A stretch of 11,635 bases of DNA from NCBI GenBank assembly GCA_029881175.1, contig JAOUNC010000046.1:1-11635 (forward strand). Reading direction: 5' to 3'. Positions 3,960-11,588 of this stretch are shown piece by piece. The position numbers and the translations under genes are program-made. Each line of letters opens with the position of its first letter. The first letter of the stretch is position 1. The stretch comes from Nitrospirota bacterium (GTDB taxonomy: Bacteria > Nitrospirota > Nitrospiria > Nitrospirales > UBA8639). The notes under the pieces were generated by a model. That model was not told the origin of the DNA, ran no database searches, and saw only the letters and a list, made by a program, of their open reading frames with translations.

Positions 3960-5318
3960 ATGAAAGAGATCATGATGGTTGGTGCTGGATCGGTTGGCGG
4001 ATATTTCGGGGCGCATTTGGCGCGCAATAACTCCCATGTTTCTTTTCTCCTTAGGCCGAAGACCCAGGCGGCCGTTGCAAAAAATGGGCTGACTATTCGA
4101 AGCGCTATTGGCGAGAGCTTTACTGTGCGGCCTCCATCTGCATCCAACCCCCAAGACTTACCTCAACCTGACCTCATTATTCTAGGAGTTAAAGCCTACG
4201 ATTTAAATGAGGTCATGGATCAGATCGAACCGGTCCTGAAACCGGATACGACGATTCTGACCTTACAAAACGGGGTGACGATTGAAGATACGTTGAAGAT
4301 GCGATTTGGGCGGGAACGCGTGGTCGGGGGCGTGGCAATTATTTACTCCAAAATTGTAGAGCCTGGTGTGATCGACCATTATAAAAAAGGGATGGTGACG
4401 ATCGGTGAATTGATGGGGTTGGAGACGCCACGGCTTTTAGAGATAAAAGATCTTTTTAAAGAGGCGGGAATTCCGTGTTTTATTACCGAAGATATTCGCA
4501 AGGCCAAGTGGGAGAAGATGTGTTGGAATTGTGTGTTTAATCCACTGACGGTGTTGTTGAACGATCATGTCGCCAAAGCCTTAGATGTTCCCGAACTCAA
4601 GCCGGTCATTGCGACGATTGTACGGGAAGTCTCGGCTGTGGCTATGGCCGCCCACCGGGTCCCTTTGGATGGAGAGATGCCCGAGAAGGTGGTGAAGTGG
4701 TCGCAAGAGCTTCGTGATATTCATACGTCAATGTATGATGATTGGAAGGCGGGTCGGCCGACCGAAATCGATGAGTTGAATGGCTATATTGTGAAGCGCG
4801 GTCAGGAATTCGGAGTGCCGACCCCTATGAATGAAATGCTCACAGCCCTCATTAAAGGGTTACTGCCTCAGGAATCTTCCGATGAGCCGGTCGTTGTGGT
4901 TGAGGGAGCGGTACAGCAAACTCTGCGATTTTCCAGAAAACATCTCAGTCAATTAGCCCTGGAATATCAGATTTCTGATGTTGGGCGTGTCATGCCAAAT
5001 ATGCGTGGGACTGGAGTGAAATTTCAAGGGATACTTGATGTTGTGACGCTTCAGCCTGGTGTCGATCATGTGACCTTTAATTCTCAAGATGGAAAGTATT
5101 CCGCATGTGTGACGCTTGAGCAGGCGAGAAAATTCGGCATTTTCCTCTATGAGCAGGATGGTGGCGATTTCCCATTTGAACGGGGAGGGCCGTTTCGATT
5201 AGTGACGCCGGGGTTGGGGGATTTGTGCGCCAATGTGAAGCAGGTTGGCCGAATCGTGTTTTCTCAAGGATTAGCCCAGGATACGCGGCCGCCAGAAGCT
5301 TGTGCGGAGGAACGGTAA
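3960..5318 (+). CDS. Ketopantoate reductase-like enzyme fused to a molybdopterin-oxidoreductase-type domain
   Basis: 452 residues; ATG preceded by AGGGG at 3950-3954. Residues 1-300 are a complete 2-dehydropantoate 2-reductase (PanE/ApbA) module, which in the family makes pantoate from ketopantoate with NADPH for pantothenate and CoA. Visible are the Rossmann motif GAGSVGG (8-14), LGVKAY with K78, LQNG with N104, W-x-K with the likely catalytic K186 in KWEKM, NPLT (194-197), and TEIDELNG with E269, the expected second catalytic residue. E. coli PanE is about 300 residues, so some 150 extra follow a linker (301-312). Residues about 313-435 resemble the sulfite oxidase/YedY fold: G-x-V start, GVKFQGILDV (352-361), SQDGKYSACV (375-384), FERGGPFRLVTPG (406-418), VKQVGRIVF (426-434). 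The molybdenum-ligating Cys expected before the GVKF segment is not seen. The frame is unbroken with uniform codon use. Because of the extra domain the true substrate is open; no other pantothenate gene is nearby. Confidence 0.8.
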   Translation: MKEIMMVGAGSVGGYFGAHLARNNSHVSFLLRPKTQAAVAKNGLTIRSAIGESFTVRPPSASNPQDLPQPDLIILGVKAYDLNEVMDQIEPVLKPDTTILTLQNGVTIEDTLKMRFGRERVVGGVAIIYSKIVEPGVIDHYKKGMVTIGELMGLETPRLLEIKDLFKEAGIPCFITEDIRKAKWEKMCWNCVFNPLTVLLNDHVAKALDVPELKPVIATIVREVSAVAMAAHRVPLDGEMPEKVVKWSQELRDIHTSMYDDWKAGRPTEIDELNGYIVKRGQEFGVPTPMNEMLTALIKGLLPQESSDEPVVVVEGAVQQTLRFSRKHLSQLALEYQISDVGRVMPNMRGTGVKFQGILDVVTLQPGVDHVTFNSQDGKYSACVTLEQARKFGIFLYEQDGGDFPFERGGPFRLVTPGLGDLCANVKQVGRIVFSQGLAQDTRPPEACAEER

Positions 5319-5484
5319 CCCTGAGTGCCTCTGCTCCATCCGTCTTTCTTCTTGAATTTCAATTGCGTGATGCACGTATTCCAGTCGCCCTGACCGGTGG
5401 CTCCTGTGGCGGCTTTCCCGCAGTTGTTGTCATGCTATGACAATAACCTGCTGTTTTTTCAAGCCTTTTAGTCTGGTTTTCTGA

Positions 5485-5513
5485 TTGCAAGTTCAATGAA
5501 TGCGCCGTAAAAT
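5485..5513 (+). promoter_or_regulatory. Sigma-70 type promoter for ndk
   Basis: TTGCAA (5485-5490, four of six matches) and TAAAAT (5508-5513, five of six) are separated by 17 bp, the optimal distance. Transcription would begin near 5520, giving a leader of about 42 nt before the ndk start. The rest of the 243-bp gap between the upstream gene and ndk shows no gene or clear terminator. Confidence 0.5.
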
Positions 5514-5561
5514 GGCCGCTTCTCACTTACCTTATTTATTCTCTGAAAGGATGTACTTGTT

Positions 5562-5978
5562 ATGGTGGAGCGAACGTTAGCGATTATTAAACCGGATGCG
5601 GTGGAAAAACATGCCATTGGCGATATTATTCGCATGTATGAAGGCGCGGGCTTGCGTCCGATTGCAATTCGTATGATGAGCTTATCGAAGGCCTGTGCGG
5701 AAGGCTTTTATGCGGTGCATCGGGAACGTCCATTTTTCAATGATTTGACCACTTATATGTCTTCAGGGCCTGTTGTCGTCTTGGTGCTGGAAGGGGCGGA
5801 TGCGGTGAAAGTGAATCGTGATCTTATGGGTGCCACGGATCCCAAGAAGGCGGAAGCTGGGACCATTCGAGCGTTGCATGGGGCCTCAATTGAAGCCAAT
5901 GCAGTCCATGGTTCCGATTCTGTAGAAAATGCCAAGATTGAAATTAGTTATTTTTTTGCTGAGTCTGAATTAGGGTAA
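5562..5978 (+). CDS. ndk: Nucleoside diphosphate kinase
   Basis: 138 residues, the usual bacterial length. It transfers the gamma phosphate of ATP to other nucleoside diphosphates through a phosphohistidine, keeping NTP and dNTP pools balanced in the cytoplasm. Clear marks are the N-terminal [12 protein letters not shown] (K10 of the family), the R-x-x-F-F region ([18 protein letters not shown], residues 53-70), [14 protein letters not shown] (90-103) and the active-site histidine H116 in NAVHGSDS. The family often has GTIR-x-DF here; this protein has GTIRALHG, a variation I believe also occurs in other lineages. The ATG has only AAAGG (5546-5550) about 11 nt upstream as ribosome site. The next gene starts 16 bp after the stop, so the two are probably one transcript. 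Confidence 0.97.
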
Positions 5979-5994
5979 GAACGGGTACAGCCCT

Positions 5995-7563
5995 ATGACC
6001 GTGTCGTATCACAAGCTAAAGAGCCTCCTGATCATGGTATTGGTGTGTAGCCTTTGCCTGGCGGGGCTTGTGGCTTGTGGGCGCACGCGGCCTGCTCATA
6101 TTCCTTCGGGGAGTGAAGCGTTGCCGCCAGTTGTTGAATCAGTGCCAGACGATGAAGAGCAGAAACTCGGTATTGAGGAGTCTGAACGTCTTCATCTCAT
6201 CCACGAACGCCTTTTTCGTGAAGCCCGGCAGCATTTTGAGGCGCAGGAATTTCAGCAAGCTATCCAGGAGTTAACGCGATTGGTCGCGCTACATCCGGCT
6301 GAAGGGCTTGAGCAGGATGCCCATTGGCTGCTCGGGCAATCATATGATCGGGTGGGGGACTGGGAAGCGTCTCAAAAGGCATATGGCATTTTGGCTTCGG
6401 CGCCTTTCGGCCAACGCTATCAAGCCGAGTCATTGCAGCGAATCCATGAAATTCAAGATTTACTTGAACAAATCAAGGGGCCGCCTCAGCAGACGCAAGC
6501 TATTCGATTTGCGTTGAATCAATTGCCGGGGACGGAGGGGTTTGATCAAGGCATCGCAAAAATGAAGCAAGATGGGATGACTACATTGTTGATTGATCTT
6601 GGATGCCAGAGATCAGATGCCTGGAATGCTGCCTCAGAGAGTTCTCCTCAGCTTCAAGATCTTGGACAACTACAAGAGGTGTTGCGATCATTTACCGAGC
6701 GCAGTCATCGGGCTGGATTATTGCTGTATGTGGGGGTGAATCTTCGTTGCTTAGGCTCTTGGGCTCCTTCCGAATCGATGGAATGGCGCGACCGGACCTA
6801 TCAGGTGAGCACAGGCACATTTCACGCGTCGACGTCCTTCGATCTTTTTCATTCAGGGTATCAACGATTTCTGCTCAGTTTTTTATCCCGTCTCTGCAAG
6901 GATGGTGTGAATGGGCTGGTGTTTTTGGATGATCAGCCCTTAGGGATGCTTGATGGAATGAGCCCTTTAGGGTTGAAACGCTTCGAATCACAATTTGGAA
7001 CACACTTTGAACCCTCTCAGGTTTTTTATCAGGGATTCAATCCTCTCGCTGGGCCCAAGGGCTCCGAAGGGGCTTCTCTGACCAGCGAGGCTTCTTCTCG
7101 TGATGCGTTGTTTTGGCGATGGGCCGGATGGAAAGCTCGGGAACGGTTGACGATTGTTGAAGCGTTGGTTGACCGTCTTCGTCTGCAGTATCGATCTGTT
7201 CAGTTTGGCCTGGAAGTGCATCCTCATGCCCTCACCGATCCGGTTCGAGCGTTAGTTGAATATGCAGAGGATGCGATGGATGCCACGGGGCGTCCATTTT
7301 CTTTCTTCTTCGTGAGACCGGAACTTAATCGAAGGTCGTCGTATACGGACCAAGCTGTTATTGCCAAGTTACGTCGCATTTCTACGAAAGCGGTTCTTGA
7401 TCGATTGCTTCCAGCGGTGGATGATCCTCGGCGTGTGTGGGTGAGTATGCCGGCGAAGGGCGGACAACGTCTTCGTTCGGAAGAGGGGTCGAGCGATTTT
7501 TCGCCGCTAGAAGACTTTCCGTCAGGTATTGGCGTTGTCCATGATCTCAGGGCCTTTTCGTGA
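5995..7563 (+). CDS. Lipoprotein with TPR-like repeats and PgaB C-terminal-like (GHL13) domain
   Basis: 522 residues. A signal peptide ends in the lipobox LVAC, so C28 should be lipidated; the following residues are G and R, with no Asp at +2, which in enteric rules favours the outer membrane. Residues about 65-160 are helical and TPR/BamD-like (RLFREARQHFEAQEFQQAIQ..., then WLLGQSYDRVGDWEASQKAY). From about 165 to 440 the protein resembles the glycoside hydrolase-like C-terminal half of PgaB, which acts on poly-beta-1,6-N-acetylglucosamine. Supporting segments are DGMTTLLIDLG (193-203), DGVNGLVFLDDQ (303-314) with an acidic pair at the usual active-site strand end, FWRWAGWKARERL (373-385), and FGLEVHPHA followed later by FSFFFVRPE. 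No NodB-type deacetylase domain is present. Substrate is unknown; a role on envelope or matrix polysaccharide is inferred. It starts 16 bp after ndk with a weak ribosome site. Confidence 0.75.
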   Translation: MTVSYHKLKSLLIMVLVCSLCLAGLVACGRTRPAHIPSGSEALPPVVESVPDDEEQKLGIEESERLHLIHERLFREARQHFEAQEFQQAIQELTRLVALHPAEGLEQDAHWLLGQSYDRVGDWEASQKAYGILASAPFGQRYQAESLQRIHEIQDLLEQIKGPPQQTQAIRFALNQLPGTEGFDQGIAKMKQDGMTTLLIDLGCQRSDAWNAASESSPQLQDLGQLQEVLRSFTERSHRAGLLLYVGVNLRCLGSWAPSESMEWRDRTYQVSTGTFHASTSFDLFHSGYQRFLLSFLSRLCKDGVNGLVFLDDQPLGMLDGMSPLGLKRFESQFGTHFEPSQVFYQGFNPLAGPKGSEGASLTSEASSRDALFWRWAGWKARERLTIVEALVDRLRLQYRSVQFGLEVHPHALTDPVRALVEYAEDAMDATGRPFSFFFVRPELNRRSSYTDQAVIAKLRRISTKAVLDRLLPAVDDPRRVWVSMPAKGGQRLRSEEGSSDFSPLEDFPSGIGVVHDLRAFS

Positions 7564-7696
7564 TAGTTCAGGGATCGTATTCCAAACAAATAATTTCCAA
7601 TGATGTGATATCGACCGTAAAGAAGGCAAAACCGCTTTATAGTTTTGAGTGAAAATGTTGGATGTGCAGTCTACTAATGATAGACCGCTGGTCGTC

Positions 7697-7720
7697 ATGC
7701 CCGCAGTTGTTGGCGGGCAT
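7697..7720. repeat. Short hairpin repeat ATGCCCGC...GCGGGCAT
   Basis: ATGCCCGC (7697-7704) and GCGGGCAT (7713-7720) form a perfect 8-bp stem with an 8-nt loop, inside the wider string GTCATGCCC...GGGCATCCATCCCC. The form GTCAT-n-CCCGC...GCGGG-n-ATCCA is a widespread class of intergenic repeat in bacteria; membership is recalled, not searched. The loop-side string CCCGCAGTTGTTG also occurs at 5417-5429, in the gap before ndk, without the other arm. No T-tract follows. Confidence 0.6.
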
Positions 7721-7781
7721 CCATCCCCAACCAACCTGAGAGAGTACATGGCGGGAATAACGCGAAAAAAATCGCTCTGGT

Positions 7782-7800
7782 TTTCAGACATTGTCTGAAA
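7782..7800. promoter_or_regulatory. Perfect 19-bp palindrome upstream of gcvH
   Basis: TTTCAGACA and TGTCTGAAA (7782-7790 and 7792-7800) are exact inverted repeats around a single T, 51 bp before the gcvH start. The near-zero spacer is more typical of a dimeric repressor or activator site on DNA than of an RNA hairpin, which needs a loop of three or more. No T-tract follows, so it is not a terminator of the upstream gene. Regulation of gcvH-lpdA by it is inference; no promoter boxes are clear around it. Confidence 0.35.
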
Positions 7801-7851
7801 CCGAATATCCAAGTGTTTAACAATGATGATTTTGAGAAAAAGGGGGTAGGG

Positions 7852-8235
7852 ATGGAACCGCAGGATTTACGGTATCACAAAGAACATGAATGGATTCGAG
7901 TGGAAGGGAATAAGGCAACTTTGGGTATTAGCAATTTTGCCCAAGATGCGCTCGGGGATGTGGTGTTTATCGATCTTCCAGAAGTCGGAGCCAGTTTAGT
8001 GGCAGAGGCGGAGCTTGGTGAAGTCGAGTCGACGAAAGCGACGTCCACGATTTATTCCCCGGTCACCGGATCCGTCGTTCAGGTCAATCAGGAATTAGAA
8101 GAGCACCCTGAATTTTTGAATTCGGATCCCTATGGCCGTGGGTGGATTGCCGTGTTGGAATTATCCAACCCCCAAGAAGTTGATGGCTTGATGACGGCTG
8201 AACAATATGACGCTTTTTTGAAATCCCAAGAGTAA
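7852..8235 (+). CDS. gcvH: Glycine cleavage system H protein
   Basis: 127 residues from the ATG at 7852, which is preceded by AGGGGG (7841-7846). An in-frame upstream start at 7813 would add 13 residues without a ribosome site and outside the usual family length. GcvH carries the aminomethyl group on a lipoyl arm between the P, T and L proteins of the glycine cleavage complex. The typical start (LRYHKEHEWIRVEG, residues 6-19), the GDVVFIDLPEVG strand (35-46) and the lipoyl-lysine region ELGEVESTKATSTIYSPVTG are all present, with K62 the attachment site; the common form is ESVKA, here ESTKA. Its stop overlaps the lpdA start in TAATG, so translation is coupled. GcvP and GcvT are not in the window; H protein may also serve as lipoate donor. 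Confidence 0.95.
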   Translation: MEPQDLRYHKEHEWIRVEGNKATLGISNFAQDALGDVVFIDLPEVGASLVAEAELGEVESTKATSTIYSPVTGSVVQVNQELEEHPEFLNSDPYGRGWIAVLELSNPQEVDGLMTAEQYDAFLKSQE

Positions 8236-9635
8236 TGGCCTCTCTTCAACGAATCATTATTATTGGTGCGGGCCCCGGTGGGTATGTCGCGGCTATTCGT
8301 GCCGCCCAATTGGGTGCTCAGGTGACAGTTGTCGAAGAGCAGGCCGTGGGAGGCGTGTGTCTCAATTGGGGCTGCATTCCAAGCAAAACCTTATTGAATC
8401 TTGTCGATCTTGGCGAACGGGCTCGGCATGCTGCGGCATGGGGATTAACGTTTGAGGGCCAGATTGGTTTTGATCTGCAACGGATGATGGCCAGGAAAAA
8501 TGAGGTGGTGCAGTCACTGGTAAAAGGCATTACGACCTTATTGAAGCAATGGAAGATTCAGCATCTGGCCGGACGAGGAGAGCTGGTGAGTGATCGGCAA
8601 GTACGGGTCACAGGTGCTGATGGTGGTAACAGTCTGATAGATGCCGACGCCATCGTGCTGGCCACGGGGTCTTCTTGGCCACAACTGCCACAGTTTCCGA
8701 TTGATGGCCAACAGGTTCTTTCGAGTAAAGAGGCTTTGGATCTTATCGATATTCCCCGAAGTGTTCTTATTGTGGGTGGGGGAGTAGAAGGCTGTGAGTT
8801 CGCCTGTTTATTCAGTGGGTTGGGAAGCCAGGTCACGTTGGTTGAAATGACGCCTTCTCTGCTGCCTACCGAAGATGAAGATACTGTGGTCATCCTGACC
8901 CGTGAATTGAAAAAGCGTAAAGTTCAGGTCCATCTGAATACGACGGTTCAAGAATGGGAAGCGACCGTCGAGGGCATTCAGGCGACCCTGAGTTCTGGAG
9001 CGGCGGTCATGGCCGAGAAGATGCTTATTTCTGTGGGACGCCGCATGAATTCTCGTGGGTTGGGGTTAGAAGCGGTGGGTGTTCAAACGGGAACCCGTGG
9101 AGAAATTCTGGTCGATGAGCATATGGAAACTTCGGTTCCAGGTGTGTATGCCATTGGCGATGTGACGGGAAAATTCATGCTAGCGCATGTGGCGTCTGCG
9201 CAAGGGAAAGTGGCGGTGGCCAATGCGATGGGCACCACTCAGTCCATCAACTATGACGTCATTCCTGCTGGCATTTTCACGCTTCCCGAAATTGGTCGTG
9301 TGGGGCTGACAGAAAAACAAGCCCATGAGCAGGGTGTGCAAACCATCGTTGGGCGGTTTCGCTATGGAGGGCTTGGCAAAGCGCAAGCCGTGGGAGAAAC
9401 GACTGGCCAGTTTAAAATCATTGCCGATGAACATACCAAGAAGATCGTCGGGGTTCATATTATTGGTGCGCATGCGGCTGATCTTATTCATGAAGGAGCC
9501 TTAGCCATGCACGGCGGCCTAACCGTAACGGATGTGGCCGATCTGATCCACGCCCATCCCACCCTCTCGGAAGGGTTGATGGAAGCGGCTGAAGATAGCG
9601 AGGGGCTGGCGATTCATCAAGCCCGCAAACGATGA
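8235..9635 (+). CDS. lpdA: Dihydrolipoyl dehydrogenase (E3 / glycine cleavage L protein)
   Basis: 466 residues, normal for the family. This FAD enzyme re-oxidises dihydrolipoyl groups and passes electrons to NAD+. In order: FAD-binding GAGPGG (11-16), the redox disulfide C42/C47 in GGVCLNWGCIPSK, the ATGSSWP segment, the NAD-binding IVGGGVEGCEFA motif, YAIGDVTGKFMLAHVASAQG binding FAD again, and the dimerisation domain ending with the catalytic pair H441 and E446 in HAHPTLSEG. The start ATG shares its A with the gcvH stop, which identifies the product as the partner of that H protein, though it could also serve 2-oxoacid dehydrogenases. All catalytic residues are intact. Confidence 0.97.
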   Translation: MASLQRIIIIGAGPGGYVAAIRAAQLGAQVTVVEEQAVGGVCLNWGCIPSKTLLNLVDLGERARHAAAWGLTFEGQIGFDLQRMMARKNEVVQSLVKGITTLLKQWKIQHLAGRGELVSDRQVRVTGADGGNSLIDADAIVLATGSSWPQLPQFPIDGQQVLSSKEALDLIDIPRSVLIVGGGVEGCEFACLFSGLGSQVTLVEMTPSLLPTEDEDTVVILTRELKKRKVQVHLNTTVQEWEATVEGIQATLSSGAAVMAEKMLISVGRRMNSRGLGLEAVGVQTGTRGEILVDEHMETSVPGVYAIGDVTGKFMLAHVASAQGKVAVANAMGTTQSINYDVIPAGIFTLPEIGRVGLTEKQAHEQGVQTIVGRFRYGGLGKAQAVGETTGQFKIIADEHTKKIVGVHIIGAHAADLIHEGALAMHGGLTVTDVADLIHAHPTLSEGLMEAAEDSEGLAIHQARKR

Positions 9636-11513: not shown

Positions 11514-11588
11514 GCGGGCGTAGCTCAGTGGTAGAGTCCTTGCTTCCCAAGCAAGTTGTCGGGGGTTCAAATCCCCTCGCCCGCTCCA
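11514..11588 (+). tRNA. tRNA-Gly (anticodon CCC)
   Basis: All four arms fold. The acceptor GCGGGCG (11514-11520) pairs with CGCCCGC (11578-11584). The D arm is GCTC/GAGT with one G-T pair. The anticodon stem CTTGC/GCAAG encloses TTCCCAA with anticodon CCC at 11546-11548. The T arm is GGGGG/CCCCT around TTCAAAT. The discriminator is T and CCA is encoded (11586-11588). It reads GGG glycine codons. Confidence 0.97.

Follow-up and report, generated by a model that had tools for sequence, protein, structure and literature searches.

A putative ketopantoate reductase fused to a predicted sulfite oxidase-fold domain without the molybdenum-ligand cysteine in a Nitrospirota bacterium

Introduction

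Enzymes of the sulfite oxidase (SUOX) fold hold molybdenum through a cysteine ligand, and also possess a dimer domain and an N-terminal segment that binds pterin. PruR is a protein of this fold that has lost the molybdenum cysteine. The pocket of PruR is truncated and binds reduced pterins, tetrahydromonapterin best, and a mostly conserved tryptophan occupies the place of the cysteine (PMC13259868). Here we describe a gene whose 452-residue product most likely joins a ketopantoate reductase (PanE) to a compact domain, predicted to be of the SUOX fold, which is likewise without that cysteine. The gene is a single open frame at positions 3960–5318 of the forward strand of an 11,635-nucleotide stretch, hereafter the window, which is the whole of contig JAOUNC010000046.1 (C186 in our set) of a Nitrospirota assembly of 3.07 Mb (509 contigs, 82% complete).

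Nitrospira and its relatives, known for nitrite oxidation and comammox, are hard to manipulate, so an unstudied protein that runs through the clade and belongs to their coenzyme A pathway deserves attention. Literature searches found no paper on the fusion.

Results

An earlier note on the window, made from its letters, had read the unbroken frame as a full PanE module followed by a SUOX-type domain, and profile searches agree. Pfam PF02558 matches residues 4–151 (3969–4412; all features of the gene are on the forward strand) with 131.1 bits and PF08546 matches residues 178–300 (4491–4859) with 123.4 bits, the latter including K186 (4515–4517) and E269 (4764–4766); both scores exceed the Pfam cut-offs. 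The match of PF00174 to residues 344–436 is significant, at 43.4 bits against a cut-off of 24 (E 3.6e-11, profile positions 65–162 of 169). The landmarks quoted in that note, GAGSVGG, K186, E269, GVKFQGILDV, SQDGKYS, FERGGPFRLVTPG and VKQVGRIVF, all occur in the translation as written. Between the halves lies a variable linker, residues 301–310 (4860–4889), with a mean column identity of 0.63 and low model confidence; residues 303–307 have a predicted local distance difference test score (pLDDT) below 50. The compact domain that follows, residues 311–441 (4890–5282), has a predicted structure of the SUOX type.

The whole protein has relatives at 146 stretches, which rules out a chance frame; the best 80 loci of the 146 were kept. 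The 82-row alignment of fused forms used below counts the window twice, once directly and once as its own locus (L001). The five nearest named relatives are metagenome-assembled genomes of Nitrospirales or Nitrospirota, with 83–89% protein identity. The relatives used for the motif counts below are the best-scoring ones only (best 120 of 477, of 124 and of 487), and many are fragments.

In the tail domain, SDVGRVMPNMRG occupies the place of the molybdenum cysteine of SUOX enzymes and is free of cysteine, as had been noticed before. When aligned with L082 and L083, the same genome's two other PF00174 proteins and both with a cysteine at this place, the fused domain is missing about eight residues. 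This shortened stretch, residues 338–350 (4971–5009), is about eight residues shorter and Cys-less in 11 aligned sequences and likewise in the five sequences of this family in a second alignment. The alignments thus describe the tail as a predicted SUOX fold minus the Mo-cysteine loop and, with that loop lost, presumably not a molybdoenzyme.

The motif GGPFRLVTPGLGDLCANVK, residues 409–427 (5184–5240), contains R413, C423 and K427 and is conserved among relatives. C423 is present in 81 of the 82 rows, the remaining row being a cut frame. Among the best-scoring relatives of 91–499 residues (298 in number, being 300 proteins less P0001 and the 84-residue P0238), C-x-N-V-K occurs in 290, and the other eight read C-A-H-V-K or C-A-S-V-K. 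A wider pattern that includes Gly-Gly and Arg fits 298 of 299 proteins, the exception (P0034) having Ile in place of Leu after the Arg. By alignment, K427 corresponds to the Lys of NNVKW in 6y0k, and it falls on position 301 of 1sox by an ungapped count back from the end of the match rather than by a printed alignment. Lys301 of sulfite oxidase hydrogen-bonds the cofactor and is a disease site (PMC10673323). Mean column identity is 0.75 over the whole tail domain versus 0.82–0.84 over the PanE half, and reaches 0.88 at residues 405–432. H370 is found in 80 of the 82 fused rows.

The first half scores 262 bits against TIGR00745 (apbA_panE), for which the cut-off is 141.35, and N104, K186, N190, N194 and E269 are kept in 82 of 82 rows; the catalytic or conserved roles of K186, E269 and the Asn residues we assume from E. 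coli PanE. A second, stand-alone panE, a point raised earlier, was not found in the 82%-complete assembly, where the fused gene holds the only PF08546 match. More widely, PF08546 has a single match in 31 of the 33 genomes having any; the other two are G142, with two genes, and G200, with two pieces of one. On these sequence data, the product of the fused gene is most probably the NADPH-dependent ketopantoate reductase of the cell, converting 2-dehydropantoate to D-pantoate in the coenzyme A pathway.

Fused forms were found in four families of the order, the window's own and three others. PF08546 was found in 28 of 40 genomes, the window's included, and in 27 of these it lies in frames of 431–586 residues, long enough for the fusion, though not every frame was read. 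In the last of the 28, G029, there is a PanE of 54% identity, and the remaining 0.8 kb of its contig gives no match to the domain. Neither PF08546 nor a strong domain match was found in eight genomes of the window's family (G020, G022, G113, G218, G220, G222, G227 and G229; 95–100% complete), all of which carry panC; the domain is therefore not essential everywhere.

Outside the order the domain exists as a separate protein. A search of 98 genomes found it in sister families of the class, in 13 genomes (G169 included) at 54–100% identity to the G169 protein, with a further form at 40% in G178 and a contig-edge piece in G206. All nine separate outgroup proteins read have a His-rich tail, and 35 matches picked as His-tailed (P0242–P0276) have 9–34 His each after the C-x-N-V-K motif; one of them, P0259, is named Candidatus Manganitrophaceae. 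The fused and later-separated forms read are without such a tail. The G178 domain (L130, 6097–6624, reverse strand) is His-rich at its start also, with His/Asp-rich stretches at both ends, and sits on a long branch in the tree. In one sister family the separate domain gene lies about 2–4 kb from a stand-alone panE in three of eight genomes (G185, G197 and G200); in the remaining five, the two genes fall on separate contigs, where nearness is still possible. In all five genomes of a second sister family, the genes are either distant from each other or on separate contigs. The stand-alone panE of G200 (L137, 8744–11160, reverse strand) is in two pieces around a 501-residue open reading frame, presumably a transposase from its resemblance, and its PF08546 matches fall in two parts.

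The fusion may have arisen between near-neighbour genes, since a hydrolase gene of the HAD type adjoins stand-alone panE in L137 and L139 and, in L028, L054 and L135, is found on the upstream side of the fused gene, separated from it by a Sir2-like gene. In a domain tree of 56 sequences the His-tailed forms split from the rest with support of 100/100, and two changes are needed to explain the separate forms inside the order. P0151 (from G023) and its kin nest, strongly supported, among fused forms (100/98 and 99/81). P0164 (from G157) and its kin, eight rows, form a group at 100/99 whose placement is weak (81/36), so the PanE half was lost at least once and probably twice. PF08546 was not found in searches of the G023 or G157 genomes. 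Gene order fits this history. The separate domain gene of G023 occupies the place of the fused gene in its genus mate G231, and the flanking families are common to both: on one side a cyclase-like and a Sir2-like gene (so identified by eye) and two others, on the opposite side ndk and a lipoprotein gene. In G231 this otherwise common neighbourhood also contains a frame of 735 residues. In G157 the domain is surrounded, as in the window, by ndk, lipoprotein, gcvH and lpd genes, apart from one inserted gene. Of the 138 residues of the G231 domain, 95 are unchanged in G023 (dN 0.24; dS not computable), and the retention of the G023 domain after loss of PanE indicates that it has a use of its own. 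Loss of PanE would be tolerable where IlvC reduces ketopantoate, which it is reported to do in Bacillus subtilis (PMC11487621).

Elsewhere in the window, on the forward strand, positions 52–486 encode a protein that matches the PagL lipid A deacylase family (PF09411, 73 bits). Positions 630–1100 and 1261–1734 encode tandem, very similar proteins of 156 and 157 residues with signal-like starts by eye, the first of which has no Pfam match. A 522-residue lipoprotein-like gene (5995–7563) has only a weak TPR match; in the window's lineage, relatives also carry it between ndk and gcvH. A tRNA gene lies at 11514–11585 (Rfam RF00005, 68.4 bits).

Discussion

Our preferred reading, held tentatively, is that a once-separate, small, molybdenum-free SUOX-fold protein was joined to ketopantoate reductase, and that the tail most likely binds a small ligand. 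The ligand, at best guess a reduced pterin or folate, would sit in the remnant of the molybdopterin pocket, bound by the loop of R413, C423, N425 and K427, and its supply could thereby influence ketopantoate reduction. The sequence analysis establishes the family, the absent Mo loop, the invariant motif, the separate forms beyond the order and the later disappearance of the PanE half, along with a predicted fold; ketopantoate activity, the identity of the ligand and any coupling between the halves we infer. Pterin or folate would suit a ketopantoate reductase, because PanB, which catalyses the previous step, consumes methylene-tetrahydrofolate. In a fuller and more doubtful form of the proposal, the domain would be a cytosolic pterin or folate sensor, similar to PruR in principle but of a separate lineage, free and His-tailed in the class Nitrospiria and then fused, tying coenzyme A synthesis to one-carbon or pterin supply in nitrite oxidisers.

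Several observations weigh against a pterin-binding tail. The window domain contains no Trp, leaving the pterin-associated tryptophan of PruR without a counterpart; PruR is periplasmic and paired with DcpA-type regulators; the fused protein opens without a secretion signal, and no such regulator is among the nine window proteins scanned. Either half can be lost (the domain was not found in G029, nor PanE in G023 and G157), so that coupling is not essential. The genes gcvH and lpd, neighbours that would suit a folate link, stand close to the gene in the lineage of the window, whereas Nitrospira-type loci do not have them nearby. Finally, the sister forms end in a His-rich tail, which suggests metal no less than pterin. 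The C-terminal domain could instead be a module for metal or thiol handling, with C423 serving in metal storage, in metal delivery or as a redox-sensitive thiol; the His tail would gather metal, and the fused form would have kept the cysteine site only. The 35 His-tailed matches, the His-rich tails of all nine outgroup loci and the invariance of C423 fit this role. We consider it less likely than the preferred reading: the His tail is dispensable, being absent from the fused and later-separated forms read, no metal genes are conspicuous beside the loci looked at, a lone Cys without an invariant Cys/His cluster makes a thin metal site, and H370, so widely kept among fused rows, is missing from L130 and L115.

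The variable, low-confidence linker and the domain-less PanE of G029 could also suggest an inert or stabilising appendage, serving oligomerisation or fold support with no ligand. This is improbable, as residues 405–432 are as conserved as the catalytic half and the domain persists alone after PanE is lost. The earlier note had offered a Moco-independent domain for either binding or oligomerisation; binding is the better option, and oligomerisation alone is unlikely for a domain that outlives its partner. A working molybdoenzyme, with C423 replacing the missing ligand, is very improbable. By alignment C423 falls in the loop beside the Lys that contacts the cofactor, both R413 and K427 are retained, and compact haloarchaeal relatives hold both cysteines; yet the ligand stretch is shortened and Cys-less in the sequences aligned, and the domain has no space for the N-terminal segment that binds pterin in SUOX enzymes. 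PruR has a similarly minimal pocket, which is reported to be likely too small for the molybdenum cofactor (PMC13259868). The other proposal of the note, that the PanE half serves another substrate, is compatible with any role for the tail; the cell would then rely on IlvC for pantoate. D-mandelate dehydrogenase, of the same fold, is almost as near structurally as ketopantoate reductase, but reduction of another 2-oxoacid is also improbable given the TIGR00745 score, the invariant catalytic residues and the usually single PF08546 match per genome. The earlier interpretation is thus supported in part, and C423, the order-wide spread and the separate His-tailed form are additions to it.

Databases name the fused proteins 2-dehydropantoate 2-reductase and the separate forms molybdopterin-dependent oxidoreductase; the latter name is misleading. 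The architecture is visible in databases, since Pfam already labels the three domains on these proteins, and what it reveals is an ordinary-looking enzyme carrying an unstudied Mo-free SUOX module. The family occurs in separate, fused and again separate states, and small soluble proteins of this kind bring the question within reach of experiment.

Comparison with known systems

Residues 1–300 match PanE/ApbA proteins (TIGR00745; PF02558 and PF08546; PDB 3hn2 and 5ayv) in sequence, catalytic residues and fold, but the listed solved relatives have chains of 291–335 residues and the fused protein is about 130–150 residues longer. The tail shares with the SUOX family (PF00174; sulfite oxidase, SoxCD, SorA and YedY) its predicted fold, the landmarks in their order, the Lys that contacts the cofactor and the GGPxR Arg, whose SUOX role we assume; it differs in the missing Mo-ligand Cys, the shortened loop, and the absence of the N-terminal pterin segment and dimer domain. 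Compact haloarchaeal PF00174 proteins (P0301, Halorussus; P0302, Halopiger) are also small and single-domain with a Cys near the place of C423 (DCWESIK versus LCANVK), but they keep the canonical cysteine (FECVEG, FACIEG) and a longer loop. These two-Cys proteins are encoded on haloarchaeal plasmids (L141, 1444–1863, and L142, 1444–1947, both forward strand), one near a DUF2249 gene and the other near NifU and redoxin genes.

No DcpA/DTB-type regulator was seen among the nine proteins scanned in the window. At one locus only (L131 of G198, 5106–8993, reverse strand), a GAF-GGDEF (diguanylate cyclase) gene is found three genes away from that of the separate domain; DnaJ/HTH and ParA-like genes intervene. 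The arrangement recalls PruR-DcpA.

PruR (PDB 7kos, 7kou, 7rkb, 7kp2 and 7kom) is likewise a compact SUOX fold without the Mo cysteine. It has 17–23% identity to the window domain, which is without tryptophan, has its own Cys and is fused to an enzyme; the fused form has no secretion signal, its Rossmann domain starting at residue 4 (separate forms were judged by eye). Given the shared Mo-free fold, Lys and Arg on one side and these differences on the other, the tail may work like PruR but is not classed as one. It appears to be a further line of descent, besides PruR, along which the sulfite oxidase fold gave up molybdenum and took on a new use.
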